Shown: positions 1-18,605, counted from the stretch's first letter. The stretch is 64,000 nucleotides of DNA from Bacillus ndiopicus (GCF_000612805.1 NZ_HG964403.1:496001-560000), one strand, 5' to 3'. The notes: generated by a model not told the origin, from the sequence alone. Numbers and translations: made by a program.

Positions 1-727
1 GGTAGGTATTGAAGACTTGCATGATATTGCAGATGGGTATAATCAGGATGTATATCAACAAACAAACTTAACATTAGAAGAACGTTTAAAAAATGAAAGA
101 GCTGAAATTTCAGTGAATGCTGAATACAGTGAAGATAAAATTATAAAATATAAAAATCAATTACAAAGAATTGATATCTATTTAGAGAGTTTATACCATT
201 ATTTAGAAAAAAATCATCAAAATGATGATGTTTATGTTACCATTATTGCAGACCATGGGCAAGGGTATATAGAAAACTCCGAAAACTTCCTTCATGATGG
301 GCGGAGAAAAGTACCTTTTATATTTAAAGGTCCAACTGTTCCAAATAAAATTAGTAACGAACTAATGTCTATTACAGACTATTTTCCAAATATGCTTGTT
401 GCATTAGGTGATGTTAAGGGTACTGATAGTGAAAATGATGCAGTTATTTTGAAGGATTTTGGTGGACAGGGTAGAGCTAGTGTGATAACGGAAACGTTTC
501 ATCCTAAGGCGCCTTATCATATTGTAATAACTGATGATAAGTTTACTTTTTCATTAAAAACAAAAAAACATGTTGAGGATGATGGATTGATTAACTTTGA
601 TGAAGTTAAAATACAATTACTTCATAATGAGAATCAAGAGGATATTACAGAAGTAAATGTAGAAAAAGTTAAAGAGTATATAACCTTTGTCACAGAGCGC
701 GTAATACATTATCAGTATATCCAATAG
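1..727 (+). CDS. AlkP-superfamily (sulfatase/phosphotransferase-like) enzyme, 5' end outside window
   Basis: The frame is open from base 2, so the gene is cut by the window edge; an internal TTG at 17 is not a credible start. About 240 C-terminal residues are visible. The block IIADHGQG followed by FLHDGRRKVPFIFKGP is the C-terminal metal-site region of the alkaline phosphatase/sulfatase superfamily, where the Asp-His pair and the later His bind metal. Members include sulfatases, lipoteichoic acid synthases and phosphoethanolamine transferases. It sits 15 bp before the PEP mutase start, so a role in transferring or removing a phosphonate or phosphate group on a glycan is attractive. That is inference: the N-terminal half with the nucleophile is not visible and the substrate cannot be read. 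Confidence 0.7.
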   Translation, partial: VGIEDLHDIADGYNQDVYQQTNLTLEERLKNERAEISVNAEYSEDKIIKYKNQLQRIDIYLESLYHYLEKNHQNDDVYVTIIADHGQGYIENSENFLHDGRRKVPFIFKGPTVPNKISNELMSITDYFPNMLVALGDVKGTDSENDAVILKDFGGQGRASVITETFHPKAPYHIVITDDKFTFSLKTKKHVEDDGLINFDEVKIQLLHNENQEDITEVNVEKVKEYITFVTERVIHYQYIQ

Positions 728-742
728 AAAAGAGTGGTCTTA

Positions 743-2341
743 GTGAAGAAAACAACGAAATTAAAACAAATGCTAGCTTCTGGTGAATTAGAATTTTTAA
801 TGGAGGCGCATAACGGTCTTTCAGCAAAAATTGTAGAAAATGCAGGCTTTAAAGGAATATGGGCAAGTGGATTGTCTATTTCAGCAGCATTAGGGGTACG
901 AGATAATAACGAGGCATCATGGACACAAGTTTTAGAAGTAATTGAATTTATGAGCGATGCTACTGATATACCAATTCTTTTAGATGGTGATACAGGCTAT
1001 GGGAATTTTAATAATATGCGTCGTTTAGTTCGTAAGCTTGAGCAACGTGGAATTGCGGGGGTTTGTATTGAAGATAAGCTATTTCCAAAAACAAACTCAT
1101 TTATTAATGGTGAAGCGCAACCTTTAGCTGATATTGATGAGTTTTGTGGAAAAATTAAAGCTGCTAAAGATGCTACGATAGACCCTGATTTTGTTGTAGT
1201 AGCACGTGTTGAGGCATTTATAGCGGGGTGGGGATTAGAAGAAGCGGTTAAACGAGCTGAGGCATATCGTCAAGCAGGAGCGGATGCAATTCTAATGCAT
1301 AGTAAAAGAGCAGATGCGACAGAAATAAAAGCATTCATGGAAGTATGGAATAATCGCCATCCAGTTATTATTGTACCAACAAAATATTACTCTACTCCGA
1401 CAGAACAATTTAAAGATTGGGGTGTAAGTACGGTTATCTGGGCAAATCATAATGTACGTGCCGCAATCAAAGCAATGGAACAAGTAACTCAAAAAATTTA
1501 TGAGGACCAGAGCTTAATTAATATTGAAGGAAACATTACTTCTGTTAGTCATATCTTTGAACTACAAGGTGCAGACGAACTAAAAGAGGCAGAGAAAAAA
1601 TATTTACCTACATATGGTCAACAAATTTCTGCTATTATTCTAGCCGCTTCAAAAGGCGAAAACTTTAATTCTTTAACAGAGCTGTTACCGAAAACATTAT
1701 TAACGGTTAACAATAAATCAATTTTTGATTCTCAGGTGGAGCTATTTAATGAGGCTGGAATTAAGGATTTAATCGCAGTCCGTGGATTTGGAAAGGAACA
1801 ATTTAAACAATCTAATATTACGTTTATTGATAATGATAAATTTAATGAAACAAAAGAATTATATTCACTCAATTTAGCATTAGAACAGGTGAAAAATAGT
1901 GCAATCATATCCTATGGGGATATAATATTTAAACCTTATGTATTAAATGAATTACTTACATCTACTGCAGATATAACGATTATTGTAGACTCAGATGCGG
2001 AATATGTCCATGATGAATACAAAGACTATATTACAGCAACAGAGAAATACAATAAGAAGAAGTTTAATCAAGAAGTTTATTTAAATACTATTTCTAACAA
2101 CGTTGAACCAACTGAAATTGATGGTGAATTTATAGGTTTATGCAAACTTACACCTGTAGGTATCCTACAATTAAAAGATGCTATTCAAGAGCTGGGCAAA
2201 ACAAAGCCATTGGAAATATTACGTTTTAGTGAGGCGCTTAATTATCTAGCGCAAAATAGTGAAATTGCAATTAAATATATTAGAGGTTCATGGGTTGATG
2301 TGGATAGCATTATTGAACTTCAAAAAGCGGGTGATCTTTAA
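743..2341 (+). CDS. pepM: Phosphoenolpyruvate mutase fused to a nucleotidyltransferase-like domain
   Basis: PEP mutase rearranges phosphoenolpyruvate to phosphonopyruvate, the C-P bond-forming entry step of nearly all phosphonate biosynthesis. Residues 1 to ~285 are the isocitrate-lyase-superfamily barrel with DGDTGYGN at about 81-88 and the diagnostic [10 protein letters not shown] (EDKxxxxxNS) near residue 110. Residues ~295-532 resemble a LicC/RmlA-type nucleotidyltransferase, but its signature loop is eroded: [20 protein letters not shown] lacks the GxGxR pattern while keeping the PK pair and a later GDI. GTG 743 is preferred over GTG 734 because a weak purine-rich site precedes it; no strong RBS is visible. 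The stop abuts the next start. At 532 aa it is longer than single-domain PEP mutases (about 300 aa). Confidence 0.93.
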
Positions 2342-3481
2342 ATGATTTCAATGGAATCGTTTGGTAATAAATTGGGTCAACTAGGATTTAATTTTTATAG
2401 TGGTGTTCCTTGCTCATTTTTAAAACCTATGATTAATTTTGCTATTAATAATGACCAGTTTATAATGGCTGCAAATGAAGGGGATGCTGTAGCTATTGCT
2501 GCTGGCGCCTCTTTAGGCGGCACAAAGAGCGTTTTTCTATGTCAGAACTCAGGGCTTACTAATGCAGTTTCACCATTGACATCATTAAACTATACTTTTG
2601 AAATCCCCGTATTAGGCTTTGTAAGTTTAAGAGGTGAACTGGGCGTTGCAGATGAGCCTCAACATGAATTAATGGGGGCTATTACAGATAAAATGCTAGA
2701 TATTATGCAAGTTCAATATGCTGTTTTATCAATAGATGAAGAAGAAGCACTACGCCAATTAGAGGAAGCTAATATGGTAATTGAAAGTGGGAAATCCTTT
2801 TTCTTTATTGTTAAGAAAGATACATTTACTTCGGTGAAATTAATGAAACAGGAAGCTCCTAACCTTAGAAATGCTCAATTAAATAATAGTATGTCAGATA
2901 CTCAAGATGTAAAACGTATCGAAGCTTTAAAAGTAGTACAAAGTGAGACAGATAAAAATACGGTATTATTAGCTACTACTGGGGTTACGGGCCGAGAGCT
3001 ATTTGAACTTGAAGATAAAAATAACCAGTTCTATATGGTTGGTTCAATGGGCTGTATCAGCTCTCTTGGTTTAGGGTTAGCTTTAGCAAAACCTAATATA
3101 AAAGTGGTTGTGATTGATGGCGATGGATCTTTGTTAATGAGAATGGGATGTCTAGCGACAAATGCATATTATAGTCCTACAAACCTATATCATTTACTGT
3201 TAGATAACGGATTACATGAATCCACTGGTGGGCAGAAAACAGTTTCTTCTCATATCGATTTTATGCAGATTGCTTATGGGGCAAGATATGAAGTTGTAGA
3301 TCAATTAAATAATTTAAGCGATTTAACACAATCTCTGAAAATATGGGGAAATACCCCTAAACTAACATTCGGTTATTTAAAAACGTCAAAAGGTATTAAA
3401 GACAATCTTGGAAGGCCCACAATCACACCTAAACAAGTAAAGGATAGATTTATGAGTTTTGTGAAGGAGTGTCCAATTTGA
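2342..3481 (+). CDS. ppd: Phosphonopyruvate decarboxylase
   Basis: Thiamine-diphosphate enzyme that decarboxylates phosphonopyruvate to phosphonoacetaldehyde, the irreversible step that pulls the unfavourable PEP mutase reaction forward. The 379-residue length fits the family. The N-terminal pyrimidine-binding half has AANEGDAVAIAAG with the conserved Glu. The C-terminal half has VVIDGDGSLLMRMG followed by LLLDN, the GDG...N metal and diphosphate motif. The start ATG comes directly after the pepM stop and the stop overlaps the next TTG start, so the genes are probably translationally coupled. Identification as phosphonopyruvate rather than sulfopyruvate decarboxylase rests on the adjacent pepM. 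Confidence 0.93.
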   Translation: MISMESFGNKLGQLGFNFYSGVPCSFLKPMINFAINNDQFIMAANEGDAVAIAAGASLGGTKSVFLCQNSGLTNAVSPLTSLNYTFEIPVLGFVSLRGELGVADEPQHELMGAITDKMLDIMQVQYAVLSIDEEEALRQLEEANMVIESGKSFFFIVKKDTFTSVKLMKQEAPNLRNAQLNNSMSDTQDVKRIEALKVVQSETDKNTVLLATTGVTGRELFELEDKNNQFYMVGSMGCISSLGLGLALAKPNIKVVVIDGDGSLLMRMGCLATNAYYSPTNLYHLLLDNGLHESTGGQKTVSSHIDFMQIAYGARYEVVDQLNNLSDLTQSLKIWGNTPKLTFGYLKTSKGIKDNLGRPTITPKQVKDRFMSFVKECPI

Positions 3482-4185
3482 AAACAGTAGTCATTGTCGC
3501 AGCAGGTTTATCAAGTCGCTTATATCCGTTAACGAAAACAAGTCCAAAATGCTTATTGCCATTAGGTACTGAAAACATACTACAGCGAAATTTAAGATTG
3601 TTAGAGAATAATGGTTTTGAACGAATTATTATTATTACAGGTTATTTAAAAGAAATGATTGAGCACACAGTTGAATCTAGGGCAGTAACATTATTTAATC
3701 CGTTTTATAAATTTTGCAATAATATGGGGTCGTTATATTTTGCAAAAAATCTTGTTGGTCGAGAGCCGTTTTTATACTTACATGGGGATGTTGTATTTAG
3801 TGAGCTTCTGTTACAACAATTCCTTAACAATATCGATGAGCAGCATTTTATAGATTTAGCTGTTGATTTTAAAGAAGCTGATGAAGAAGCGATGAAGGTA
3901 CAAATAAATGAGGAATTTTATTTAATTCGCTCTAGTAAAGATATTACTTTAGAAGATAGTAAAGGTGAATGGATTGGTTTAGCGGCTATTCATCGCCCGG
4001 AGAAGTTATTTAAGGAAATAGAAAAGCAACTAGTTGCTGAAAATATGAATGTTTATGATACGTATGCTTTTACAGAATTGGCTAAAAACGATGAAAGAAT
4101 AAAATGTTTACCAATTTACGATGAACCTTGGGTAGAAGTTGATTTTATAGAGGACTATGAAAAAGCAAAGGAATTATTTGAATGA
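3478..4185 (+). CDS. LicC/PntC-like cytidylyltransferase, probably activating a phosphonate
   Basis: 235-residue stand-alone nucleotidyltransferase. It starts with an intact signature, VAAGLSSRLYPLTKTSPKCL, and contains HGDVV (metal-binding Asp) and NNMGSLYFAK, resembling the NN-x-SL motif of phosphocholine cytidylyltransferase LicC and of the AEP cytidylyltransferase PntC. It likely couples CTP to 2-hydroxyethylphosphonate (or 2-aminoethylphosphonate) to give a CMP-phosphonate donor. TTG 3478 is chosen because AAGGAG at 3464-3469 lies eight bases upstream; the TTGA overlap couples it to the decarboxylase. A sugar-1-phosphate substrate cannot be excluded from sequence alone. Confidence 0.82.
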   Translation: MKTVVIVAAGLSSRLYPLTKTSPKCLLPLGTENILQRNLRLLENNGFERIIIITGYLKEMIEHTVESRAVTLFNPFYKFCNNMGSLYFAKNLVGREPFLYLHGDVVFSELLLQQFLNNIDEQHFIDLAVDFKEADEEAMKVQINEEFYLIRSSKDITLEDSKGEWIGLAAIHRPEKLFKEIEKQLVAENMNVYDTYAFTELAKNDERIKCLPIYDEPWVEVDFIEDYEKAKELFE

Positions 4186-5267
4186 GAAATGAATTTTATA
4201 ATCCTGTCAAAATTGAATTTGGTCATAATTCGTTAGATTTTTTACCTAGATATATAAATGGACGAAAAGCTCTTCTCGTTACATCAAAAAGCTTTGTTAA
4301 TAGAGGGATTGTCAAAGAAATTGTAAGTAATAATCCGACTATTATGCAAGTTATTTCAAATATTCAGCCTAACCCAACCATTAATCAAATACTTGAAATT
4401 CGAAGTCAATTGGATTATGAGAATTTTGAAATGATTATTGCATTAGGCGGTGGTAGTGTTATTGATGCAGCGAAGGCAATAGCACCAATGGATTCATCAA
4501 ATAATCTGCTGGAACTTTTAAATAAAGGAATCCCTAGGGAAATGGATATAAAACCGATTGTTGCTATTCCTACAACAGCAGGTACTGGTTCAGAAGTAAC
4601 AATGTGGGGAACAATTTGGGATGATATAAATAAAAAGAAATATTCTATTATGGATGAACGATTATATTGTGAGGTTGCAATATTAGATCCAGTTTTACAT
4701 TTGACTTTACCTTATGACATAACAGTTCAAACTGGGTTAGATGCACTTTCGCACAGTTTGGAAAGTATTTGGAATAAAAATAATAATGCTATATCTACAT
4801 TGTATGCCAAACGTGCTATTAGTGAAATTTTTGAAACTCTTCCCTTGTTAGCAAATGATTTAGGAAATATTTTATACCGTGAAAAGATGCTACTAGCTTC
4901 ATATTATGCCGGAATTGCTTTTTCTAATACACAGACAGCTATTGCCCATGCTATGTCTTATTATTTGACGTTAGAAAAAGGAATTCCTCATGGTATTGCT
5001 GCAAGTATTACTTTACCAATAATAATGGATGTTTTCTTAAAAGATGCTACCGATGAAAATATCTTTGGAATGTCAAATACCAATTCTGTAGAAATTCTTA
5101 AAAGATTGTTTTCAGATTTAAATATATCATTAAATTTAAAAGACTATAATTTAACAGTAAAAGATATTGATAATATTCAAAGCTCCTTAGAGTCTAATAA
5201 TCGAGCACAAAATAGCAATTTAGATACTCGGAAGGTACTCATTATGTTAAGGGAGTATCTGCAATGA
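4182..5267 (+). CDS. Iron-containing alcohol dehydrogenase, likely phosphonoacetaldehyde reductase
   Basis: 361-residue group III (Fe-dependent) alcohol dehydrogenase. ALGGGSVIDAAKA is the NAD(P)-binding loop, PTTAGTGSEVT is the family signature, and His residues in DALSHSLE and KGIPHGIAAS are the usual metal ligands. In phosphonate pathways this family (PhpC, FomC, DhpG) reduces phosphonoacetaldehyde to 2-hydroxyethylphosphonate. It overlaps the cytidylyltransferase by four bases (ATGA) and no AEP transaminase is present nearby. The expected product is therefore HEP rather than AEP. Enzyme class is clear; the substrate is inferred from the operon. Confidence 0.87.
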   Translation: MRNEFYNPVKIEFGHNSLDFLPRYINGRKALLVTSKSFVNRGIVKEIVSNNPTIMQVISNIQPNPTINQILEIRSQLDYENFEMIIALGGGSVIDAAKAIAPMDSSNNLLELLNKGIPREMDIKPIVAIPTTAGTGSEVTMWGTIWDDINKKKYSIMDERLYCEVAILDPVLHLTLPYDITVQTGLDALSHSLESIWNKNNNAISTLYAKRAISEIFETLPLLANDLGNILYREKMLLASYYAGIAFSNTQTAIAHAMSYYLTLEKGIPHGIAASITLPIIMDVFLKDATDENIFGMSNTNSVEILKRLFSDLNISLNLKDYNLTVKDIDNIQSSLESNNRAQNSNLDTRKVLIMLREYLQ

Positions 5268-5284
5268 TAAGAGGGGATTTTAAA

Positions 5285-7483
5285 GTGAAAAAAAGAAATA
5301 TTTTAATAAATTTAATGACTGATAAATTGCAAGAACAAGACTTTAAAGAAATAAGTAAGCTTTATAAAAAAAACTTTGAGATTTTTAATTTTCAATTTTG
5401 TGTAGAAGAAGTATTTCCAGATATTTTAGGAGCAATTTTAAAAGAATTAGAAAGTCAATCTAAAGTAAATATTAAAAATGATATTATTTTTTTTCAAACA
5501 AATATAGCTGATTTAGCGCATTTTTCAATGAAATTTTATTCAGAATATATTGATGCGGTTATTGTATATCCAAAAAAGGTAGACTTTTTGATTAACTATG
5601 ATAAGAGTAACTTAATGATTATTCCAATAATCCAAACACAAACTGACATGTTGAGGTTAACAAAAGTATATACGCATTTTATACCTACAATGGATGCAGA
5701 ATACTTAGTGTTCTTAAATGATTTTTCATTATTTAATGATATAGAGATTGTAGAGAGGTTTGAACTACCTACATCATTAAAAATGTCTAATAATCTTAAT
5801 TATAAATTTGATGATGCAGAAATTCTTAACGAAATACCAGGTGTGGCGAAGTATATAGAAATTAATATACAAATGAACGAGAAAAAAATAGAGGGATATG
5901 ACTATTTACAAACATTTTCGTCATTTTTAATGGCAATTCAATATAATATGAAAGCCAATTTAAACAGCATTGTTAAACAAAACAATTTTGCTAATATAAT
6001 TAGCAGCTTGAGAAAAGCCACTAGTATTATTCAGGATTTTAGTGTATATATTTATCGATATTTAAATATAAATCAGGATAAACTCCCTCTTAATGAATTT
6101 GCAACGTTAAATTATATAACAATACTGTTTAAAGATTCTGAAGCTTATAGAAGACAGTTTGAGTATTTGAAAAAAAATATAAATAATATAGATATTATGC
6201 AAGCTCATGCGCTGATTACTAATAGTCATTTTTATGAAAGTAAAATGGGCGTTAAACGGTATAGTAATTTATTTAAAGATCGCATGGAGATACGTGAAAA
6301 AATTATTCAGAAGGTGCGTAGCAACATAGATATTCCTCAAGCTGTTTATAGAGAGAAAAACAATATAGCCATAATAGCTGGACAACTGTTAAATACAATG
6401 CACTCACCTACTAAGTGGGTGTTAGATTATGCTAATAATTTGAAGAAATTTAATCCGCAATTAAATATAAAGATTTTCGTTGAAGATTGGGCAAATTATT
6501 CGCCAAATGAGTTAGTTTGGAACATATCCTTTTCCTCAGTATTTTCATCATCTGTGGCTGATGTTCATAAGGAGTATTTAGATTCTTCTATTGAAGTGTA
6601 TTATTCAGATGCAACTTTAGCTAGAGAAGAAAGAATTCAAAAAGATATTTTAGAAATATGTGAATTTAAGCCAAGTCTAATATATAAACTGGGATCTAAA
6701 TATAATATTGCTATAGATTTATTATATCCTTATTTTCCAATTGTGAGTCAAACAATATATGGAGCAGAAGACAACCAATTTACAGATATATTTACAGGTG
6801 GATTTACCCTAGAAAATATTGATTACTTATACAAAGAACAAAATATGTTCAATGTATCTTATATGCCACACCATGTCGGTATTGAAAATATAGAAAGTAA
6901 AGTTGTTAGAACAAGAGAGAGCTTTGACTGGACAGAAGAAGATTTTTTGCTAGTCTCTGTAGGAAATAGGCTTGATGTTGAAATGACTGAAGAGTTTATT
7001 GATACAATGATAAATATTTTAAGTAAAGATGATTCTGTAAAATGGTTAATAGTTGGGGCTAGTAGTATCAAATATATTAATGATCAATATTCTTATTTAG
7101 TACAAGAACAACGTATTAAGTATCTTAGTTATGAGAGATATTTATTTGATTTATATAAAATGTGTGATGTTTATGTAAATCCTCTAAGAAGAACAGGTGG
7201 GCACAGTGTGGCGATAGCAATGAAAGCTGAATTACCAGTAGTTGCTGCTGATAAAACTTCGGATGTTGCAGGATTCATAGGACCAGAAAATTGCATTACA
7301 TTAAGTGAATTTGCTAGGGAAGTTTTTGAATTAAAAACTAATCCTCAATATTATAGAGAAAAATCCAATATGCTGTTTGAACGTATTAATAAAGAATTTT
7401 CATTTGAAAAAACTAATAAAGATTTAATAAAAATATTTGAACTCTCGGAATCTAAATTCGTTGAAAGGAATCAAACCAATTGA
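5285..7483 (+). CDS. Large glycosyltransferase with GT4-like C-terminal domain
   Basis: About 732 residues. The C-terminal ~370 residues carry glycosyltransferase family 4/GT-B features: a VSVGNRLDVEMTEEF segment, then CDVYVNPLRRTGGHSVAIAM and LPVVAADKTSDVAGFI, the donor-binding region. The N-terminal ~340 residues show no domain I recognise and are rich in Asn, Ile and Lys. GTG 5285 has GAGGGG eight bases upstream; ATG 5264, overlapping the dehydrogenase stop, also has a possible AAGGGAG site, so the start is ambiguous. It is coupled to rmlA at the 3' end. Given the context it may build the glycan that receives the phosphonate, or transfer a sugar to flagellin or another surface protein. The acceptor is unknown. 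Confidence 0.75.
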   Translation: MKKRNILINLMTDKLQEQDFKEISKLYKKNFEIFNFQFCVEEVFPDILGAILKELESQSKVNIKNDIIFFQTNIADLAHFSMKFYSEYIDAVIVYPKKVDFLINYDKSNLMIIPIIQTQTDMLRLTKVYTHFIPTMDAEYLVFLNDFSLFNDIEIVERFELPTSLKMSNNLNYKFDDAEILNEIPGVAKYIEINIQMNEKKIEGYDYLQTFSSFLMAIQYNMKANLNSIVKQNNFANIISSLRKATSIIQDFSVYIYRYLNINQDKLPLNEFATLNYITILFKDSEAYRRQFEYLKKNINNIDIMQAHALITNSHFYESKMGVKRYSNLFKDRMEIREKIIQKVRSNIDIPQAVYREKNNIAIIAGQLLNTMHSPTKWVLDYANNLKKFNPQLNIKIFVEDWANYSPNELVWNISFSSVFSSSVADVHKEYLDSSIEVYYSDATLAREERIQKDILEICEFKPSLIYKLGSKYNIAIDLLYPYFPIVSQTIYGAEDNQFTDIFTGGFTLENIDYLYKEQNMFNVSYMPHHVGIENIESKVVRTRESFDWTEEDFLLVSVGNRLDVEMTEEFIDTMINILSKDDSVKWLIVGASSIKYINDQYSYLVQEQRIKYLSYERYLFDLYKMCDVYVNPLRRTGGHSVAIAMKAELPVVAADKTSDVAGFIGPENCITLSEFAREVFELKTNPQYYREKSNMLFERINKEFSFEKTNKDLIKIFELSESKFVERNQTN

Positions 7484-8352
7484 AAGGTATATTACTTGCG
7501 GGAGGAACTGGATCAAGATTGTCTCCTCTAACTAAATCAATTTCTAAACATTTATTACCTATTTATGATAAGCCTATGATCTATTATCCTCTCTCCGTAT
7601 TAATGCTAGCAGGGATTAAAGAAATATGTATCATTAGTACAGAGCATGATTTACCGCTTTATAAAAAGTTACTGAAAGATGGTAGCCAGTTGGGAATTTC
7701 TATTGAATATAGAATTCAAAAGAAACCAAATGGAATTGCTGAAGCCTTATTATTAGCAGAAGATTTTATAGATAATAGCTCTGTGTGCTTAATATTAGGA
7801 GATAATATTTTTTATGGACAAGGTTTTACTCCTATTTTGAAAAAAGCTACTAAATTAGAACAGGGAGCAATTATTTTTGGTTACGGGATAAAGGATCCAG
7901 AACGTTTTGGTGTAGTAGCTTTTGATTCCAATAATAAGGTAGTTTCAATTGAAGAAAAGCCCGCTAAACCTAAATCTAATTATGCGATAACTGGTTTGTA
8001 TTTTTATGATAATAATGTTGTAAATATAGCGAAATCAATTACTCCCTCTAGTCGTGGGGAGTTAGAAATTACAGATGTGAATAAGGAATATTTAAAAAAT
8101 AATGCTCTACAAGTAGAATTGTTGGGTAGAGGATTTGCTTGGTTAGACACTGGAACTTTTGAAAGTTTGCTAGAATCTGGACAATTTGTGGAAACGATAG
8201 AAAAGCGGCAAGGTTACAAAATAGCTTGTCTAGAAGAAATCTCTTTTAAACAAGGATGGATTACAGAAAAACAGTTACTAGCATTGGCCAATAGCTATAA
8301 AAATAATAGTTATGGTGATTATTTAATAAAGATAGTTGAAGAGGGCATATAA
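7480..8352 (+). CDS. rmlA: Glucose-1-phosphate thymidylyltransferase
   Basis: Makes dTDP-glucose from dTTP and glucose-1-phosphate, the first step toward dTDP-6-deoxysugars. The 290 residues match the short RmlA form. The N-terminus ILLAGGTGSRLSPLTKSISK is the full nucleotide-binding signature, LLPIYDKPMIYYPLSVLM follows as in RmlA, and GDNIFYGQG and EEKPAKPKSNYA are further family blocks. It starts with TTG 7480, overlapping the glycosyltransferase stop. Glucose-1-phosphate would come from pgcA about 14 kb downstream. The next dTDP enzyme recognised is the aminotransferase at 9030; a dTDP-glucose 4,6-dehydratase is not seen in the window. Confidence 0.95.
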   Translation: MKGILLAGGTGSRLSPLTKSISKHLLPIYDKPMIYYPLSVLMLAGIKEICIISTEHDLPLYKKLLKDGSQLGISIEYRIQKKPNGIAEALLLAEDFIDNSSVCLILGDNIFYGQGFTPILKKATKLEQGAIIFGYGIKDPERFGVVAFDSNNKVVSIEEKPAKPKSNYAITGLYFYDNNVVNIAKSITPSSRGELEITDVNKEYLKNNALQVELLGRGFAWLDTGTFESLLESGQFVETIEKRQGYKIACLEEISFKQGWITEKQLLALANSYKNNSYGDYLIKIVEEGI

Positions 8353-9029: not shown

Positions 9030-10151
9030 ATGATTCCTTTTAACAAACCACCTGTAATTGGAAGGGAAATAGAGTATATACAAGATGCTATAGAAAATGG
9101 TCATCTTTGTGGTGATGGAAAGTATACGAGGCTATGTCATGAATGGCTAGAAAAAAATACAGGAGCAAAGAAAGCTTTATTAACAACGAGCTGTACACAC
9201 GCGTTAGAGATGACAGCTTTATTATTAAATATTCAACCTGGCGATGAAGTGATTATGCCTTCTTATACATTTGTATCTACCGCTAATGCTTTTGTATTAC
9301 GGGGAGCAAAAATAATATTTGTTGATATTAGGCCAGATACTATGAATATTGATGAAACAAAAATTGAAGCTGCTATTACTAGTAAAACTAAAGTAATCGT
9401 TCCAGTTCACTATGCAGGCGTTGCATGTGAAATGGATACTATAATGGAAATAGCTGATCGTTATAATTTATTTGTCGTAGAAGATGCTGCCCAAGGTTTA
9501 ATGGCAAAATACAAAGGGAAAATGTTGGGAACAATCGGACATTTAGGAACGTATAGCTTCCACGAGACAAAGAACTTTGTTTCGGGAGAAGGAGGAGCAC
9601 TTTTAATAAATGATAAGAGATTTATTGAACGTGCAGAAATTATTCGAGAAAAAGGGACGAACCGTTCGCAGTTTTTCCGAGGGCAAGTAGATAAATATAG
9701 TTGGCAAGATGTTGGATCTTCTTATTTGCCAAATGAACTAACTGCAGCGTATTTGTTTGCACAATTTGAGAATATTCAAATGTTACATAAAGAACGTCTG
9801 GAAATTTGGACTAGTTATTATGAGGAATTAAAGAATATAAAACAATTTGAATTACCTTTTATTCCAAATGAATGCGAACATAATGGGCATATTTTTTACC
9901 TTAAAGTAAGAGATTTGGAAGAAAGAACAAAATTGATGAACTATCTAAAACAAAATGAGATTCAAAGTACGTTTCATTATGTCCCATTACATTCAGCAAA
10001 TGCTGGTTTGAAATATGGAATATTTAGAGGAGAAGATAATTTTACAAGTTCTGAAAGCGAAAGGTTAGTAAGGCTTCCTTTATATTTTGGTTTAAGTGAA
10101 TTTAAAAATATTATAAAAGTATTGGAGAAATACTCAAATGAGAACCAATAA
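9030..10151 (+). CDS. DegT/DnrJ/EryC1/StrS sugar aminotransferase, WecE/RffA-like
   Basis: 373-residue PLP-dependent aminotransferase converting a 4-keto-6-deoxy nucleotide sugar to a 4-amino sugar. The sequence starts IPFNKPPVIGREIEYI and continues GHLCGDGKYT, close to WecE/RffA, which makes dTDP-4-amino-4,6-dideoxygalactose. VVEDAAQG carries the PLP Asp and YSFHETKN carries the Schiff-base Lys. ATG 9030 follows AAGAAGG. The gene overlaps the next by 14 bases. Activity on dTDP-4-keto-6-deoxyglucose fits the upstream rmlA but needs an rmlB from elsewhere. Confidence 0.92.
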   Translation: MIPFNKPPVIGREIEYIQDAIENGHLCGDGKYTRLCHEWLEKNTGAKKALLTTSCTHALEMTALLLNIQPGDEVIMPSYTFVSTANAFVLRGAKIIFVDIRPDTMNIDETKIEAAITSKTKVIVPVHYAGVACEMDTIMEIADRYNLFVVEDAAQGLMAKYKGKMLGTIGHLGTYSFHETKNFVSGEGGALLINDKRFIERAEIIREKGTNRSQFFRGQVDKYSWQDVGSSYLPNELTAAYLFAQFENIQMLHKERLEIWTSYYEELKNIKQFELPFIPNECEHNGHIFYLKVRDLEERTKLMNYLKQNEIQSTFHYVPLHSANAGLKYGIFRGEDNFTSSESERLVRLPLYFGLSEFKNIIKVLEKYSNENQ

Positions 10152-10872
10152 TATGGATTTAAATAAATTTTCACAAGCATATGACAATGATTTTCCTTAT
10201 GCATTAGATAATGAGTTAATACTAAATTGGTATCCTAAAAGAGTAATTGAAAAAACCTCTATGGGAAAATCTTTGTTAGAACTAGGAATAGGGCACGGTT
10301 ATACATCGATTTCGTTTTCTAAACATTTTTCAAGACATGTAGTGATTGATGGATCTGAGGAAATAATATCTAAATTCAAACAAAATCATGATACAAGCCA
10401 GATTGAAATTATATATTCCTATTTTGAGGATTTTGAAACTACCGAAAAATTTGATGTAATTGTCATGGGATTTATTTTAGAGCATGTAGATAATCCAGAT
10501 ATGATATTAAATAAATTTAAAGAATTTTTAAAACCGAATGGAAAAGTATTCATTGCTGTACCTAATAGTGATTGCTTGAACAAAAGAATAGGACTAGAGG
10601 CGGGTCTTATTTCTGATATGAAGGAGTTAACTACAGCAGACTTAGCATTGGGACACCAAAGAATCTATGATGTGGATTCACTTAAAAATTTATGTGTAAA
10701 ATGTGGATTTATTATCAAATCTATTGAAGGAGTTTTTTTGAAGCCAATTACTACAAGCCAAATTAAAGAATTGAAACTTTCAGAAGAAATTTTAAATGCA
10801 ATGTTAGTAGTGGGAGTGAATTACCCAGAGCTTTCGGCAGCTATCTTAATGGAGATAAGTTTAAATAATTAA
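10138..10872 (+). CDS. Class I SAM-dependent methyltransferase
   Basis: 244 residues with a Rossmann methyltransferase core: LLELGIGHGYTSISF is motif I (the E/D-x-G-x-G SAM loop), VIDGSEEII is motif II, and FDVIVMGFILEHVDNPD is the post-motif typical of UbiE/Methyltransf_11-type enzymes. ATG 10138 lies inside the end of the aminotransferase gene with GGAG about 11 bases upstream. It probably O- or N-methylates the sugar or its acyl substituent. The exact target cannot be read from sequence. Confidence 0.85.
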   Translation: MRTNNMDLNKFSQAYDNDFPYALDNELILNWYPKRVIEKTSMGKSLLELGIGHGYTSISFSKHFSRHVVIDGSEEIISKFKQNHDTSQIEIIYSYFEDFETTEKFDVIVMGFILEHVDNPDMILNKFKEFLKPNGKVFIAVPNSDCLNKRIGLEAGLISDMKELTTADLALGHQRIYDVDSLKNLCVKCGFIIKSIEGVFLKPITTSQIKELKLSEEILNAMLVVGVNYPELSAAILMEISLNN

Positions 10873-10894: not shown

Positions 10895-11758
10895 ATGAAT
10901 ATATTAGTAGTTGGTAATACCTCAATTGTTGGAAAAAGAGTTATTGAACAATTAAAAAAAAATACAAAATGTATAGTTTATGTTACTGGCAGGAATAAAA
11001 AAGCTGATATATTTTTTGATTTAGAAAATGAGCAGTTAGAGGATAATGTTAAAGGATATAATTTTGATGTAATTATTAATTGTGCAGCTAGTTTTGATGA
11101 TGACAGCATTAAAGGGTCTTTGAAAAATTTGAAAATTAACACTATGGGTGCTGTTAAAATAGTCGATTTAGCATTAAATACAAAATGTCGAAGAATAATA
11201 AATCTCTCAAGTATATCTATGTACTCAAATAAAGAAAATGAATACTATAATTCATATGGTATTTCTAAAAGTTTTGCAAGTGAATATTTTAAATTACTTT
11301 GTAAACAATATAATATTGATTTTTGTGAATTGCTTCCTAGTCAAATTTATGATGAAGCAGGTGAACAAAAAAAGCATCAGGGGCTACTATATTCTATCAT
11401 TGACCAAGTAAGTAAAAAAAGCGAAATTACTTTCTGGGGAAATCTTGATGTAAAACGTAATTACATATTTATTAAGGATTTAGTTAATATTATAGAAAAG
11501 GTAATATTCTCTGATATTACAGGCTCATACCCGTGCTGTTATATTAAAAGCTACACGCTTAGTGAAATTGTAAAAATTGCCTCAAAAGTTTTTGAACAAA
11601 AAATTCAATATACTTTTGATGCTAAGAAAGAAAGCTTGAAAACGATTTATATACCTGAAACAAGCTATGAATTATATGAACAAATTAATTATACACCACA
11701 AGTCGATTTAGAAAAGGGATTGAAGTTAATTAAAAAGACCTTATATGTAAAGGAATGA
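10895..11758 (+). CDS. NAD-dependent epimerase/dehydratase (SDR)
   Basis: 287-residue extended short-chain dehydrogenase. The N-terminus ILVVGNTSIVGKRVI is a Rossmann loop variant (GxxxxxG rather than strict GxxGxxG). INLSSISMYS supplies the catalytic Ser and YNSYGISKSFASE the YxxxK pair. NYIFIKDLVNII is the usual segment before the substrate-binding region. It may be a 4-ketoreductase or epimerase acting on the nucleotide sugar. It is short for a 4,6-dehydratase such as RmlB (about 340-350 aa), so I do not call it that. Confidence 0.82.
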   Translation: MNILVVGNTSIVGKRVIEQLKKNTKCIVYVTGRNKKADIFFDLENEQLEDNVKGYNFDVIINCAASFDDDSIKGSLKNLKINTMGAVKIVDLALNTKCRRIINLSSISMYSNKENEYYNSYGISKSFASEYFKLLCKQYNIDFCELLPSQIYDEAGEQKKHQGLLYSIIDQVSKKSEITFWGNLDVKRNYIFIKDLVNIIEKVIFSDITGSYPCCYIKSYTLSEIVKIASKVFEQKIQYTFDAKKESLKTIYIPETSYELYEQINYTPQVDLEKGLKLIKKTLYVKE

Positions 11759-11765
11759 CGACAGA

Positions 11766-12737
11766 TTGTATAAAATATTAGTTACAGGTGTTGGCGCAAT
11801 TATAGGCTATGGAATAATACAGTCTTTAAGACAATCGAAATATGATGTTACTATAATAGGCACTGATATATATGATGATGCAATTGGAAGAGAGTGGTGC
11901 GATATTTTTGAGCAAGGAGTACTTGCTAATTCTAAAGAATATCCACAATTTTTGAAGAATCTTATAATGAAATATGATATAGATTTAATCATTCCAGGCA
12001 TTGAACAGGATATCAATAGGATTGTTCGTGAGTATGATTACTTTAGTACATTAGATACTAAATTTGCAATAAACAATCGACAACTGATTGAAATCGCAAA
12101 TGATAAATGGTTAACGCATTTAATGTTAGTTAAAAATGGTTTTCCAGTAATACCTACCTACATAGATGGTGAATTTGATGAAGTGAAATTAGCTTTAGAT
12201 ATCCCAATGTTAATGAAGCCTAGGAATTCATACGCTTCTAAAGGGATACATCAAATTGATACTCCTGAAGATTTTAATTATTGGAAAAATAAATTAGAAA
12301 AAGAATTTATGGTCCAAAAAATTGTTGGGGATGCGGATTCAGAATATACTGTCGCAGCTTTTGGATTAGGTGATGGTACATGTTCACAAAAAATTTCATT
12401 AAAAAGAAAATTAGGTGCAGATGGAGCTACATCTAAAGCTAATGTAGTTATTAGTACCCAGTTAGATACAATAGTTGACCGATTAGTAGCAAGTTTCAAA
12501 CCAATTGGTCCTACTAATTTTCAATTTATATATCATAAAGGGGAATTTTTATTATTAGAGATTAACCCTAGAGTATCTTCATCTACTTCAATAAGAAATG
12601 CCTTTGGATATAATGAGGCAGAAATGTGTATTGATTATTACTTGAAAAATCAAATACCTAAAATAAGAGAAGTGAAAAGAGGCTCTGCTATTAGATACAT
12701 AAAGGAAAAAATTTATTATGATAGCGATTATATCTGA
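11766..12737 (+). CDS. ATP-grasp ligase (carbamoyl-phosphate-synthase-like)
   Basis: 323 residues. The N-terminal part has a Rossmann-like fold start (ILVTGVGAIIGYGIIQSL). The ATP-grasp fold follows with PMLMKPRNSYASKGIH (the ATP-binding Lys and flexible loop), FMVQKIVGDADSEYTV, and the metal site FLLLEINPRVSSSTS. Such enzymes form amide or ester bonds through an acyl phosphate. Next to a sugar aminotransferase and a WbqC protein, attaching an amino acid or acyl group to the 4-amino sugar is a reasonable hypothesis. TTG 11766 follows AAAGGA; the 3' end overlaps the next gene by 20 bases. Confidence 0.85.
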   Translation: MYKILVTGVGAIIGYGIIQSLRQSKYDVTIIGTDIYDDAIGREWCDIFEQGVLANSKEYPQFLKNLIMKYDIDLIIPGIEQDINRIVREYDYFSTLDTKFAINNRQLIEIANDKWLTHLMLVKNGFPVIPTYIDGEFDEVKLALDIPMLMKPRNSYASKGIHQIDTPEDFNYWKNKLEKEFMVQKIVGDADSEYTVAAFGLGDGTCSQKISLKRKLGADGATSKANVVISTQLDTIVDRLVASFKPIGPTNFQFIYHKGEFLLLEINPRVSSSTSIRNAFGYNEAEMCIDYYLKNQIPKIREVKRGSAIRYIKEKIYYDSDYI

Positions 12738-13410
12738 TATTCATGGAAATTATGCTGCGTTAAAAGCTGTTTTGGAAGATATTGATGGAAGAGGTATAGA
12801 TAACATCATATGCTTAGGTGATACGGCAGGATATTACTGTATGATAAATGAGTGCATAGAAGAACTCAAAGAAAGAAATATTTACTCACTTCAAGGAAAT
12901 CACGATTATTACTTAATAAGTGGACAAAGATGTTTAAGATCAAATTCAGCTAATAAATGTCTTGAATTTCAACATACTGTCTTGACATCTTCCAATAAAA
13001 AATGGTTAGAAGATTTAACTTCTAGCTCACTAGTTTTTAACAATATGAATTTTGTACATGGTGGCTGGAACGATAACCTAGATGAGTACATATATAGTAT
13101 CTCGACTGACTATTTTGAAACAATAAAAGGCAGATATTTTTTTTCAGGACATACGCATGTCCCTATAATTTATGATATGGGAAATAAACTATACTGTAAT
13201 CCAGGGGCGGTTGGGCAACCGCGGGATGGAAAATCGGCCGCATCATATGCAATCTTCAAAAATGGATTAGTAGAAAATATAAGAGTGGCCTATGATATTG
13301 ATTTGATTGCCTTTCATATGAAAAAAAATGGATTTGATAATTATTTTTTTGAAAACCTTTATTTAGGGCAGAGAATTGGTGGAGGAATATCTTCTACAGT
13401 TATTATGTGA
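12718..13410 (+). CDS. Metallophosphoesterase, YfcE/MJ0936-like
   Basis: 230 residues with all calcineurin-like phosphoesterase motifs: ISDIHGNYAAL (DxH), CLGDTAGYY (GD), LQGNHDYYL (GNHD), FVHGGW and FSGHTHVP (GHxH). These coordinate two metal ions. Such proteins hydrolyse phosphomonoesters, phosphodiesters or cyclic nucleotides. A copy inside a glycan island, sharing 20 bases with the ATP-grasp gene, probably acts on a phosphorylated intermediate of the pathway. The substrate is unknown. Confidence 0.87.
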   Translation: MIAIISDIHGNYAALKAVLEDIDGRGIDNIICLGDTAGYYCMINECIEELKERNIYSLQGNHDYYLISGQRCLRSNSANKCLEFQHTVLTSSNKKWLEDLTSSSLVFNNMNFVHGGWNDNLDEYIYSISTDYFETIKGRYFFSGHTHVPIIYDMGNKLYCNPGAVGQPRDGKSAASYAIFKNGLVENIRVAYDIDLIAFHMKKNGFDNYFFENLYLGQRIGGGISSTVIM

Positions 13411-13438
13411 TAATGAATTATTAGAAAGGGTTTTCTAA

Positions 13439-14137
13439 TTGAAAAAAGTAGCAATTTCACAATCAAATTATATTCCTTGGAAGGGATATTTTGATTTAAT
13501 ATCGACTGTAGATATATTTGTTATATATGATATTGTCCAGTATACAAAAGATGACTGGAGAAACAGAAATAAAATTATTACTTATAATGGTGTAAAATGG
13601 GTGACAATTCCTACGGAAAAAAAAGATTGTTTAAATAAAAAAATTAACGAGATTAAGATTTCCAAAAGAGATTGGTATGTTAATCATTTAAATCAAATAA
13701 AAGAGTCATACAGAAAAGCACCATTTTATGAAGAAGTGATAAATTGGCTTGAAAATATATACTTTGAATGTAAAGAATATATCTACCTATCACAAGTAAA
13801 TAAACATTTTATATTAGCGATTAACGAAGTTTTGGAAATTGTCACAAAAATTATTGATTCAGAGAATTTTGAAGTGGGAAACGAGAGAAATCAAAGATTA
13901 ATAGATATTTGTTTAGCATTAGATGCAACAAATTATGTATCAGGTCCGGCGGCAAAGAAATATTTAGATGAATATTTATTCAATAGCAATGGGTTAGTTG
14001 TTGAATGGATGAATTATGAAGGGTATCCTAAATATCCACAGTTGTCCGATGCTTTTGAGCCAGCAGTTAGTATTATAGACTTGCTGTTTAATGTTGGATT
14101 AAAAGAAGCGAAATTTTATATTAAAAAGGCTTTTTAA
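13439..14137 (+). CDS. WbqC-family protein
   Basis: 232 residues. The N-terminus VAISQSNYIPWKGYFDLI and the block VIYDIVQYTKDDWRNRN are typical of the WbqC-like family; FVSGPAAKKY-like (here YVSGPAAKKYLDEYLF) and YPKYPQL segments follow. The family is named from an O-antigen cluster whose repeat carries a 4-(N-acetylglycyl)amino-4,6-dideoxy sugar (from memory), and it has been linked to amide decoration of amino sugars. That fits the upstream 4-aminotransferase and ATP-grasp genes. I know of no firm biochemical assignment. TTG 13439 follows GAAAGGG. Confidence 0.85.
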   Translation: MKKVAISQSNYIPWKGYFDLISTVDIFVIYDIVQYTKDDWRNRNKIITYNGVKWVTIPTEKKDCLNKKINEIKISKRDWYVNHLNQIKESYRKAPFYEEVINWLENIYFECKEYIYLSQVNKHFILAINEVLEIVTKIIDSENFEVGNERNQRLIDICLALDATNYVSGPAAKKYLDEYLFNSNGLVVEWMNYEGYPKYPQLSDAFEPAVSIIDLLFNVGLKEAKFYIKKAF

Positions 14138-14185
14138 TAAATGATTTTCATTTTTTTATAATACTAAAAAATGTGAGGTTAATAA

Positions 14186-15163
14186 ATGAAAATTTTAGTG
14201 ACTGGTGCTGGAGGTTACATAGGAACTGTATTAGTTCCTAAGCTTATAGAAAATGGACATGAAGTAGTTGCTGTAGATTACTATTATTTTGGGGAAGAGA
14301 AATTAGATTTGCATGAAAAACTTACAAAAGTAAAGTTAGATGTTCGACATTTTGATGTTAATCTTCTTCAAGGAGTAGATGTTGTTATTGATTTAGTAGC
14401 GATATCGAATGATCCGAGTGGAGAGGCATTTAAAGAAATAACTTACGAAGTCAATTATAGAGCACGTGTAAAAATTGCGGAGTATTCCCGAAAATTAGGA
14501 GTGAGTCGTTATATTTTGCCTTCATCTTGTAGTATTTATGGTTTTCACGAGGACGAAATATTACTAGATGAAAATTCTCCAATAAATCCACTGACGACCT
14601 ACGCAAAAGCGAACCGTATGGCAGAGCAAGAAATTTTAGAGTTAGCAAGTGAAGATTTTTGTGTAACAATAATGCGACAGGCAACTATTTATGGGGTTTC
14701 CAAAAGGATGCGATTCGATTTAGCGGTAAATGCGATGGTTTATGAAATTTGGAAAAATGGTAAACTCCCGTTAATGCGAGATGGAAAACAGTGGCGGCCA
14801 TTTTTACATATTGAAGATACAACTGATTGTATGATGTATTTAATGAATACTGAAAAACAGAAGATAAATGGGGAAATTTTTAATATTGGATCAAATGAAG
14901 AGAATTATCAGATTATTGAAGTGGCGAATGTAATAAAAAATACTGTTAATCCTGAAAGTATCATTGAATGGTATGGTGATCCAGATCATCGTTCTTACAA
15001 AGTCGATTTTTCAAAAATAAAAAGAATGATAGGATGGGCTCCCAAAAGAACAATTGCTACTGGTGCGAAAGAAATCTTAGAAAAATTGGAAAAGAACGAA
15101 ATAAATAAAACGGAAGATACTATAACATTAAATTGGTACAAAAAAATAGGTATAGATATCTAA
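14186..15163 (+). CDS. NAD-dependent nucleotide-sugar epimerase/dehydratase (SDR)
   Basis: 325-residue extended SDR. ILVTGAGGYIGTVLV is the GxxGxxG cofactor loop, LPSSCSIYG carries the catalytic Ser, and WRPFLHIEDT is the conserved substrate-domain block. The catalytic Tyr segment reads TTYAKANRMAEQE, so the position of the Lys in YxxxK is Asn; this may be a subfamily trait. The MRFDLAVNAM stretch is shared, as I recall, by a particular group of polysaccharide-cluster epimerases. ATG 14186 follows a GTGAGG-type site. It is the last gene of the island and is followed by a terminator. The reaction is unassigned. Confidence 0.85.
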   Translation: MKILVTGAGGYIGTVLVPKLIENGHEVVAVDYYYFGEEKLDLHEKLTKVKLDVRHFDVNLLQGVDVVIDLVAISNDPSGEAFKEITYEVNYRARVKIAEYSRKLGVSRYILPSSCSIYGFHEDEILLDENSPINPLTTYAKANRMAEQEILELASEDFCVTIMRQATIYGVSKRMRFDLAVNAMVYEIWKNGKLPLMRDGKQWRPFLHIEDTTDCMMYLMNTEKQKINGEIFNIGSNEENYQIIEVANVIKNTVNPESIIEWYGDPDHRSYKVDFSKIKRMIGWAPKRTIATGAKEILEKLEKNEINKTEDTITLNWYKKIGIDI

Positions 15164-15821: not shown

Positions 15822-16211
15822 ATGCGTATTACAGGGAATGCAGATACAAGTGCAGTTGCTCTTAATAAATCAATAGCTTCAAGTACACCAAAAGTAGAAG
15901 ATGTAGCAAAGCAAGGAAGCGAAGCTACAATGCACAAGAATGTACTTAATATTGAGCAAGTCCAACAGCCAAGTACTGATGAAGAGATAAAAGTAAAAGT
16001 GCAAGAAGCAGTTGAAACAATGAATAAAATGCTAGAGATTCATAATAATGCTGCTAAGTTCATGTATCATGATGGTTTAGATCGCTATTATATAACCGTA
16101 GTAGACCGAGACACGGAGGAAGTAATAAAAGAAATTCCGCCGAAGAAGCTTTTGGATGCTTTTTATGAAATGCAAAAGTTGTTCGGTATGATTGTAGATA
16201 AGAGAATATAA
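15822..16211 (+). CDS. flaG: Flagellar protein FlaG
   Basis: 129 residues. The C-terminal half has the FlaG core: MNKMLEIHNNAAKFMYHDGL, then YYITVVDRDTEEVIKEIPPK and LDAFYEMQKLFGMIVDKRI. The N-terminal ~45 residues are variable, as is usual. FlaG influences filament length in several bacteria. ATG 15822 has AAGGAGG at an ideal distance and the gene follows a SigD-type promoter. It is the first gene of flaG-fliD-fliT-fliS. Confidence 0.93.
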   Translation: MRITGNADTSAVALNKSIASSTPKVEDVAKQGSEATMHKNVLNIEQVQQPSTDEEIKVKVQEAVETMNKMLEIHNNAAKFMYHDGLDRYYITVVDRDTEEVIKEIPPKKLLDAFYEMQKLFGMIVDKRI

Positions 16212-16238: not shown

Positions 16239-18605
16239 ATGGTAATGCGAATTGGCGGATTAGCGTCAGGTATGGATATTGATGAGTTAGTAAAAAAATT
16301 AATGACAGCAGAAAGAGCACCGCTGAACAAGCTTTTACAAAGTAAACAACGCTATGAATGGCAACGTGATGCTTATCGTGATGTCAATAAAAAATTAAAA
16401 ACATTTGATACGTATATTGCCGATAATTTAGTATTGAAATCTTTAAATACTAAAACAGCATCAAGTTCAAATTCAAGCTTAGTTTCAGCAAGTGCAACTA
16501 GTAAAGCGACTGGGACTCTTTCCATTGAAGGTGTTTCACAATTAGCACAAGCAGCTCGCATCACAGGATCACAAGTTAGTGCAAATGGTTCAACAAAGAT
16601 GAATGAATTAGGCGCTACAGGAACAATTGAGCTAAAAGCCATTCAAAGTGATGGGACAATGGCAAAGGAAGCTACAAAAATTGAAATTACATCTGATATG
16701 ACAGTAGACGCTTTTGTGAAAAAAGTGAATGAGAGTGGAGCTGGTGTATCAGCAGTGTTTGAAAATGGTCGTTTCTCATTTACTGCGAAAAACACTGGAG
16801 ATAACAAATCAGGTGATGAAATTGAAATTACAAGTGGACAAGCAATTTTTGATCAATTAGGTTTTTCAGTAAATGATACTATTGATAAAGTTGAGGGGAA
16901 AAATGCGGTTTTCCAAATAAACGGTATCGCAACAGAGCGCTCAACAAATACGTTTTCAATTAATGGATATAGTATTACTTTAAAGTCAACTTTCAATGGA
17001 GCACAGGCAACTGCTATACGCTACAACGCAGCGCATGAAGAATGGAAAAATACAACAACAGCAGAATATAATCAAATGATTGCTGATAAATTAGCTGCGA
17101 AAAATGCAGCTGGTGATGCATATACAACGGCGAAAAATAGCTATGATGATGCTAAAAATGCATTATTTGGTACAGTAGAGCTAACAAATGCTAATAAAGT
17201 AGCATTTGATAAAATTAGTAATCCACAATTTGCACGTAATTTATCAGAAGCAGAAGTGCAAACGATTTCTGGGAAAACATTTGCCGATAAAACGGAATAT
17301 GAAGCTTGGTTAAATGATAATTCTACAGATGCTGATTTAAAAGCCAAATTAAAGGGTGCAAATATTAATTTTGATCAATTTAAAGCGATCGGCTCTTTAG
17401 ATTATGAAAAAATTCAAAGTTTATCGGCTCAGTCAGTATATAATACATTAGGTCGCTCGTTCTTAAACGGTTTAACAGATGAAGAAAAAGGCTTAGTCAA
17501 AGCTTTACCTTCTACAAAAGAAGATTTTGATAATCAAATTAATGCTTGGAAGGAAAATGGCACTGTCGAAGAGAAAGCTTTAGCTGAAAAGTTATCGAAG
17601 CTGAGCGAAAAGCAAAAGGAAACATTGCGTCAAACTTCAGATTCAGATTTTGATAAACTAACAGCTTTAGCAACGGCACAAACAGACCACGATGCGAAGT
17701 TAAAAGAAAAAACAGCAGCAGAAAATGCTTATCAAGCACTTGTTGACCGTCAAGCGAAGGCGGAAGTTGACTTTAAAGATGCTTATAAAAATCAATTTGG
17801 CACTGATTATACAACTGGTGATCCAGGTAAAGTGAGCAATGTGCCTGGAGCAACAGAAAGCCCTGTTACACTAACTTCTACTACAAACGTAGATGAGATG
17901 ATGAATAAAATTAAAGATTTTGTTAACACCTATAACGGTTTAATTAAAGAGTTAAAGGATCAAACGACTGAAGCGAAATATCGTGACTATACTCCATTAT
18001 CGCCAGACCAAAAAGAAGAAATGAAGGAAAGTGAAATTAAGCTTTGGGAAGAAAAGGCAAAGAGTGGTTTATTACGCAATGACGAATTAATTAACAATGG
18101 ATTATCTAAAATGCGCGCACTTATTTATGAATCGAATCCAGGCTTAGAGGATTCGAAATTTAAAACTCTCTTCAGTATCGGTATTACAACCTCTAAAAAT
18201 TATAATGAGGGTGGCACATTAGAAATTGATGAAGCGAAACTGCGTAAAGCGTTAGAGGAAGATTCGGACGCAGTGGAACGTCTATTTAATAATTCAGACG
18301 GTAAAAAAGATGCAGTAATTGATGGGAAAACAGTTGATACACGCGGCTATCTTGATAAATTACGTGACTCAATGAAGTCATTCGAAATTTCTATTGAGAA
18401 AAAAGCTGGTCGTGCTACGATGACAGATAACCAATATTTAATTGGTAAGAGCTTGCAAGATACTGAGAAGCGCATTTCCACATGGCAAGATAAACTAAAA
18501 ATGATTGAAGCTCGCTATTGGAAACAATTTGGCGCAATGGAGGCAGCTATTAATAAAGCAAACCAACAATCTGCAATGTTATTCCCAGGTATGGGACAAC
18601 AATAA
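16239..18605 (+). CDS. fliD: Flagellar filament cap protein FliD, with large insertion
   Basis: Cap protein (HAP2) that folds and inserts flagellin at the filament tip. The N-terminus RIGGLASGMDIDELVKKLM is a textbook FliD start, and the C-terminal FliD_C domain (about residues 540-780) includes MNKIKDFVNTYNGLIKELK and ARYWKQFGAMEAAINKANQQ. At 788 residues it is ~290 longer than B. subtilis FliD (498). The extra material is an Ala/Lys/Asp-rich, mostly helical-looking stretch at about residues 270-530, in the solvent-exposed middle of the protein. ATG 16239 follows GGAGG with an 8-base gap. It precedes its chaperone-like partner fliT by 12 bases. Confidence 0.95.
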   Translation: MVMRIGGLASGMDIDELVKKLMTAERAPLNKLLQSKQRYEWQRDAYRDVNKKLKTFDTYIADNLVLKSLNTKTASSSNSSLVSASATSKATGTLSIEGVSQLAQAARITGSQVSANGSTKMNELGATGTIELKAIQSDGTMAKEATKIEITSDMTVDAFVKKVNESGAGVSAVFENGRFSFTAKNTGDNKSGDEIEITSGQAIFDQLGFSVNDTIDKVEGKNAVFQINGIATERSTNTFSINGYSITLKSTFNGAQATAIRYNAAHEEWKNTTTAEYNQMIADKLAAKNAAGDAYTTAKNSYDDAKNALFGTVELTNANKVAFDKISNPQFARNLSEAEVQTISGKTFADKTEYEAWLNDNSTDADLKAKLKGANINFDQFKAIGSLDYEKIQSLSAQSVYNTLGRSFLNGLTDEEKGLVKALPSTKEDFDNQINAWKENGTVEEKALAEKLSKLSEKQKETLRQTSDSDFDKLTALATAQTDHDAKLKEKTAAENAYQALVDRQAKAEVDFKDAYKNQFGTDYTTGDPGKVSNVPGATESPVTLTSTTNVDEMMNKIKDFVNTYNGLIKELKDQTTEAKYRDYTPLSPDQKEEMKESEIKLWEEKAKSGLLRNDELINNGLSKMRALIYESNPGLEDSKFKTLFSIGITTSKNYNEGGTLEIDEAKLRKALEEDSDAVERLFNNSDGKKDAVIDGKTVDTRGYLDKLRDSMKSFEISIEKKAGRATMTDNQYLIGKSLQDTEKRISTWQDKLKMIEARYWKQFGAMEAAINKANQQSAMLFPGMGQQ

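Follow-up and report, generated by a model that had tools for sequence, protein, structure and literature searches.

We analysed a window of 64,000 nucleotides of the Bacillus ndiopicus genome (GCF_000612805.1, NZ_HG964403.1:496001-560000, one strand, 5' to 3'), in which four coupled genes at positions 743 to 5,267 encode a phosphoenolpyruvate (PEP) mutase (PepM), a phosphonopyruvate decarboxylase (Ppd), a PntC-type cytidylyltransferase and an Fe-alcohol dehydrogenase (Fe-ADH). We read these genes, with a probability of roughly 0.7, as a cassette for phosphonyl tailoring that belongs to a flagellin-glycosylation island. In the proposed pathway, PepM would isomerise PEP to phosphonopyruvate, Ppd would decarboxylate this to phosphonoacetaldehyde, Fe-ADH would reduce the aldehyde to 2-hydroxyethylphosphonate (HEP), and the stand-alone PntC would convert HEP and cytidine triphosphate to the cytidine monophosphate (CMP) derivative CMP-HEP. 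A cytosolic protein of the alkaline phosphatase superfamily (TPR-AlkP; TPR, tetratricopeptide repeat) would then use CMP-HEP as donor and attach its HEP group to a flagellin glycan hydroxyl prior to flagellin export. Judging by the rmlA, wecE-like and methyltransferase genes, the acceptor glycan would bear an amino-dideoxyhexose.

The positions and families of the four coupled genes, as given in a preliminary description of this DNA, were borne out. The mutase scored 402 bits with TIGR02320 (curated cut-off 319.6) and has the catalytic motif EDKxxxxxNS, and the decarboxylase scored 387 bits with TIGR03297 (curated cut-off 312.5). The dehydrogenase matches PF00465, keeps the metal ligands DxxxH...H...H and has TIGR03405 (phosphonate ADH, PsrA) as its top NCBIfam model. 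The core genes directly adjoin or share 4-13 nt with their neighbours, and the series continues into the glycosyltransferase gene and rmlA. What the preliminary gene list had missed is that the mutase reading frame is a fusion, with a MobA-like nucleoside triphosphate (NTP) transferase at residues ~299-535, so that the cluster holds two NTP transferases. About one third of PepM proteins have such a fusion, and some clusters have another NTP transferase nearby (PMC6697681). The fused domain (window 1628-2338) has LAASKG, without the Gly and Arg of LAAGxGxR, and this non-canonical signature is common to all homologues aligned, whether from clusters of the 2-aminoethylphosphonate (AEP) type or of the HEP type. 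Because the signature is the same in both cluster types, it cannot account for the split between AEP and HEP, and the fused domain was disfavoured as the HEP-activating enzyme.

For the stand-alone cytidylyltransferase, the nearest solved structures by sequence were LicC (1JYK) and PntC (6PD1), and the best fold match of its AlphaFold model (pLDDT 92) was product-bound PntC (6PD2, TM 0.88). The LicC/PntC fold is accompanied by the signature AAGxxSRL..LT..PK. Glu104 and Glu196 of the solved Treponema denticola enzyme (Tde-PntC) are placed for binding the AEP amine (PMC6697681); the window enzyme has His105 and Asp instead. Across relatives, the position of Glu104 is Glu in 14/14 AEP-type sequences (Tde included) and His in all eight ADH-linked enzymes, which also all have Asp at the position of Glu196. 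His is found at the Glu104 position in the highly divergent enzyme of genome G215, too. The ADH-linked enzymes form one clade (support 96/91), apart from those linked to an AEP transaminase (AEPT; 98/94). This apparent pocket change, a correlation, fits a substrate with a hydroxyl instead of an amine.

AEPT, the genomic partner expected for a PntC that activates AEP, is absent from the cluster, as the preliminary description had stated, and the statement holds for the whole genome, in which the TIGR03301 profile found no match above cut-off. The best AEPT candidate in the genome scores highest as an aspartate-glyoxylate aminotransferase. Among 21 related clusters, that of the window included, 13 have AEPT without ADH and eight have ADH without AEPT, and the two never occur together. 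The first three steps would thus very probably yield HEP, and the activated product is in turn likely to be CMP-HEP; the earlier preference for CMP-HEP over CMP-AEP is supported by the genome-wide absence of AEPT, the mutual exclusion of ADH and AEPT, and the pocket residue. Away from the island, the window genome encodes a PhnX-like phosphonoacetaldehyde hydrolase (G000:C4:220030-220629; 235.7 bits, cut-off 220), which could drain the pathway intermediate.

The sequence 5' of the window (L003) contains flgK, flgL, a FliW-like gene, hag, a 112-aa gene and the 676-aa TPR-AlkP gene, the flagellar names being taken from sequence reading and from matches in relatives. The last of these genes is cut by the window start, its coding sequence beginning ~1.3 kb earlier (L003:16697-18727). 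The glycan genes are therefore located between hag (flagellin) and flaG-fliD-fliS, which makes this a flagellin-glycosylation island and not just a surface-glycan island: the preliminary description named no flagellin locus, though it proposed testing flagellar fractions. The segment 11766-15163 makes up the remainder of the island and is mostly syntenic in G150. The GC content of the island is 27-34%, mostly lower than that of the sequence beyond fliS, and PepM was found in one of five genomes of the genus and in 19 of the 261 genomes of the family (an order-level search gave the same 261). Low GC content and patchy PepM occurrence would be in line with horizontal exchange.

Linkage to flagellin genes recurs in relatives. 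Of the ADH-type clusters in Bacilli, the eight whose flanking sequence suffices for a judgement all lie at a flagellin locus (G000, the window genome; G034, Lysinibacillus cavernae; G150; G232; G215; G297; G408; Cohnella fermenti) and represent at least three families; a ninth, L006, was left out of this count as its contig is too short to judge the flagellar position. Viridibacillus soli and Saccharibacillus have AEP-type clusters with PntC at the flagellin locus as well, but that of G235 is not at this locus. Within the family, 6/7 PepM clusters containing a nucleotidyltransferase (NTase) lie within ~26 kb of fliD, compared to 0/11 NTase-free ppm-ppd-AEPT trios (Fisher p = 0.0004, a descriptive value because the genomes are related). 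These trios, located away from flagellar genes in eleven family genomes (L115-L121, L123-L126), are a different use of AEP. G215 has a different arrangement beside hag, with PF01467 fused to PepM in a Fom1-like protein and with genes for Ppd, an Fe-ADH, a further NTP transferase and a transferase resembling TagF (PF04464). Two differently built HEP cassettes are thus found at the same kind of locus, which argues for flagellin as the acceptor. The PepM of the AEP-type Viridibacillus cluster is nested in its tree among proteins of ADH-type Bacilli (100/100), yet the PntC of this cluster is of the AEP type; this conflict suggests that the head-group module was seemingly exchanged at one locus. 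Taken together, the linkage makes flagellin the probable acceptor.

We consider the TPR-AlkP protein the best candidate for transferring the CMP-bound head group, with about even odds, because of its occurrence in flagellar islands, its head-group neighbours, the lack of LicD, its invariant residues and its likely cytosolic location. It matches PF00884 and PF01663 above cut-off, and D296, T335, D440, H442, D519, H520 and H602, assigned as metal ligands and nucleophile by motif reading, are invariant in 13 homologues. No transmembrane segment was found in it, and it is therefore likely located in the cytosol, where flagellin is glycosylated. Fifteen of the family genomes encode such a protein, in a flagellar island wherever the flanks show it, with HEP or AEP genes as neighbours in four genomes, licABC in three and a methyltransferase in most others. 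LicD (PF04991) was found neither in the window genome nor in any of the 14 TPR-AlkP genomes tested (G247 left out), and it lies next to or near ppm in L. cavernae, G297, G408 and L006. These distributions strengthen the earlier proposal of the AlkP protein as a transfer candidate. The other enzyme proposed for transfer, the large glycosyltransferase (739 aa from its first start, and not 732 aa as first given), was rejected for this role, having only a glycosyltransferase group 1 domain and the appearance of an ordinary glycosyltransferase. Also rejected was the AlkP protein as a phosphonate-specific enzyme, since 11 of the 15 family genomes with TPR-AlkP have no PepM. Somewhat short of even odds, we tentatively propose that TPR-AlkP proteins may represent a new class of phospho(no)transferases dependent on CMP or cytidine diphosphate that replaces LicD for flagellin glycans, with HEP, AEP and choline modules interchangeable at one locus and swapped by cassette exchange. 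In three further flagellin islands of the family, from genomes without LicD, the TPR-AlkP gene adjoins genes for a choline kinase, a LicC-like enzyme and an EamA transporter (L153:5357-8621, L154:6117-8753, L155:116-3353); phosphocholine on flagellin is predicted for them, in L155 by likeness to L153. In islands that have neither a phosphonate nor a choline cassette, the TPR-AlkP gene is usually beside a gene for a ~220-aa methyltransferase (L149:7806-8471, L150:8184-8843, L152:11251-11916, L157:7865-8527).

Several observations count against this reading or parts of it. The TIGR03405 score of the dehydrogenase (331 bits) beats every other model by ~150 bits and lies below the curated cut-off of 423.7, and the enzyme is therefore classed as a relative of the phosphonate ADH, not a member; its orthologues in L004-L006 score 350-387 bits. 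His105 is a correlate inside one clade and therefore effectively reflects few independent events. In G985, of the same phylum, a Fom1-like cytidylyltransferase-PepM fusion, Ppd, an NTP transferase and Fe-ADH lie in a polysaccharide cluster (L161:14464-19901, L162:1-713) with no flagellar gene seen within ~20 kb, and phosphonate modules are therefore not tied to flagella in general. Regarding the transferase, eight flagellin islands, one of them on a short contig, also have AlkP relatives, and no adjacent phosphonate or choline cassette was seen in these, and G297 and G408 carry both LicD and a distinct sulfatase-like protein. Moreover, known phosphotransferases of the AlkP superfamily (LTA synthase, EptA) use lipid donors.

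An alternative explanation is that an unlinked aminotransferase provides AEP, that CMP-AEP is the true product and that the ADH serves another role. Phosphonate tailoring usually involves AEP (PMC6697681), and class V aminotransferases occur in the genome, but no AEPT above cut-off is found genome-wide, the best candidate scores as an aspartate-glyoxylate aminotransferase, the ADH takes the place of AEPT in eight clusters, and the PntC pocket has His in place of Glu104, which makes this explanation quite improbable. We regard it as somewhat less improbable, though still unlikely, that CMP-HEP is made for a cell-wall or capsule polysaccharide and that the flagellar neighbourhood is incidental. 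Exopolysaccharides bearing HEP are known from Glycomyces and Stackebrandtia, and the related G985 cassette lies within a polysaccharide cluster; against this stand the consistent flagellin linkage in Bacilli, the maf-type flagellin glycosyltransferases in the same island of relatives and the window island itself, where neither a polymerase nor a flippase was recognised. Finally, HEP could be a mere intermediate to a diffusible phosphonate natural product, as it commonly arises on the way to antibiotics and, in fosfomycin biosynthesis, is converted to CMP-HEP by Fom1 (PMC6697681). This is very improbable given that no Fom3, HepD, MpnS or similar tailoring gene was recognised among the island genes, that sugar genes come after the cassette and that linkage to the flagellin locus recurs across families.

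Features of the island and flagellin locus in the window (coordinates from the first nucleotide of the window)
Feature	Position	Strand	Basis
TPR-AlkP gene, 3' part, candidate phosphonyl transferase	1..727	+	PF00884, PF01663, invariant residues, neighbours
ppm, PEP mutase with fused C-terminal MobA-like NTP transferase	734 or 743 (start) to 2341	+	TIGR02320, PF12804 on residues 300-419
ppd, phosphonopyruvate decarboxylase	2342..3481	+	TIGR03297
PntC-type cytidylyltransferase, HEP-type subclade (His105 replaces Tde-PntC Glu104)	3469..4185	+	PF12804/PF00483, fold, tree
Fe-ADH, predicted phosphonoacetaldehyde reductase	4182..5267	+	PF00465, TIGR03405 best model, metal ligands
739-aa glycosyltransferase, group 1 domain C-terminal	5264..7483	+	PF13692; orthologue in L113
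rmlA, glucose-1-phosphate thymidylyltransferase	7480..8352	+	TIGR01207 above cut-off
WecE-like dTDP-4-amino-4,6-dideoxy sugar transaminase	9030..10151	+	TIGR02379, 638 bits
S-adenosylmethionine (SAM) methyltransferase	10138..10872	+	PF13489
NAD-dependent sugar epimerase/dehydratase	10895..11758	+	PF01370
ATP-grasp protein, YfcE-like phosphoesterase, WbqC-like protein, sugar short-chain dehydrogenase/reductase (SDR)	11766..15163	+	WbqC and SDR by sequence reading
flaG	15822..16211	+	sequence; position ahead of fliD
fliD, flagellar cap	16239..18605	+	PF07195, 2.8e-44
fliS	19003..19407	+	sequence and position

Ordinary enzyme families are found here in a new arrangement, and the prediction that follows is clear and testable. 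Phosphonate on flagellin has previously been seen once, in Clostridioides difficile, where the source of the phosphonate is unknown. As complete make-and-activate cassettes are present in flagellin islands of several families of Bacilli, the maker, the activator and the transferase are directly testable, and an AlkP-superfamily protein is pointed to as the missing transferase of genomes without LicD. Glu versus His offers a one-residue marker for predicting whether a PntC is of the AEP or the HEP type. The C-P bond is hard to break, and phosphonates, which resemble phosphate groups, are resistant to phosphatases; coating flagella with them could affect phage adsorption, surface charge or recognition by other organisms.

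Compared to known systems, HEP was reportedly described by Yu et al. in 2014 (a study cited in PMC8931226) on the exopolysaccharide of Glycomyces and Stackebrandtia, which is a surface decoration too, but with a polysaccharide as the acceptor and in actinomycetes. The preliminary description knew of no report in this Gram-positive group. This stands for HEP: in literature searches that left subscription papers mostly uncovered, and are weak evidence for that reason, no phosphonate cassette in a flagellin island, HEP on flagellin or AlkP-type phosphonate transferase was found. It does not stand for phosphonates as such, since 2-AEP on the type A flagellin glycan of C. difficile has been published (Hensbergen et al. 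2022, PMC8861647), the sole relevant match for flagellin with phosphonate or PEP mutase; flagellin, LicD and phosphocholine gave no relevant match. Phosphonylated glycoproteins have been proposed for marine bacteria (PMC8931226). C. difficile shares with our prediction a phosphonate on a flagellin O-glycan, but there it is AEP, of unknown source in an organism without PepM (PMC8861647), whereas the window holds a complete predicted HEP cassette in a flagellin island. CMP activation of phosphonates was already known from the Pnt pathway of T. denticola (Tde1415, PntC-AEPT; Rice et al. 2019, PMC6697681), which like the window combines a PepM-MobA-like fusion, Ppd and a second, LicC-like cytidylyltransferase, adjoins glycan genes and provides the closest solved fold (6PD2). 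The window differs from it by an ADH in place of AEPT, His in place of Glu104, the flagellin locus and a genome without LicD. With fosfomycin Fom1, whose N-terminal PF01467 cytidylyltransferase is fused to PepM and of which a relative sits in the flagellin locus of G215, the predicted common product is CMP-HEP; unlike in that pathway, the window cytidylyltransferase belongs to PF12804/PF00483, and neither an epoxidase nor a methylase gene was recognised. The lic operon (LicABCD) similarly places a CMP-activated head group onto a glycan, and related islands hold licABC beside the same AlkP gene, but the window genome has no LicD and the AlkP protein is the proposed transferase in its place.

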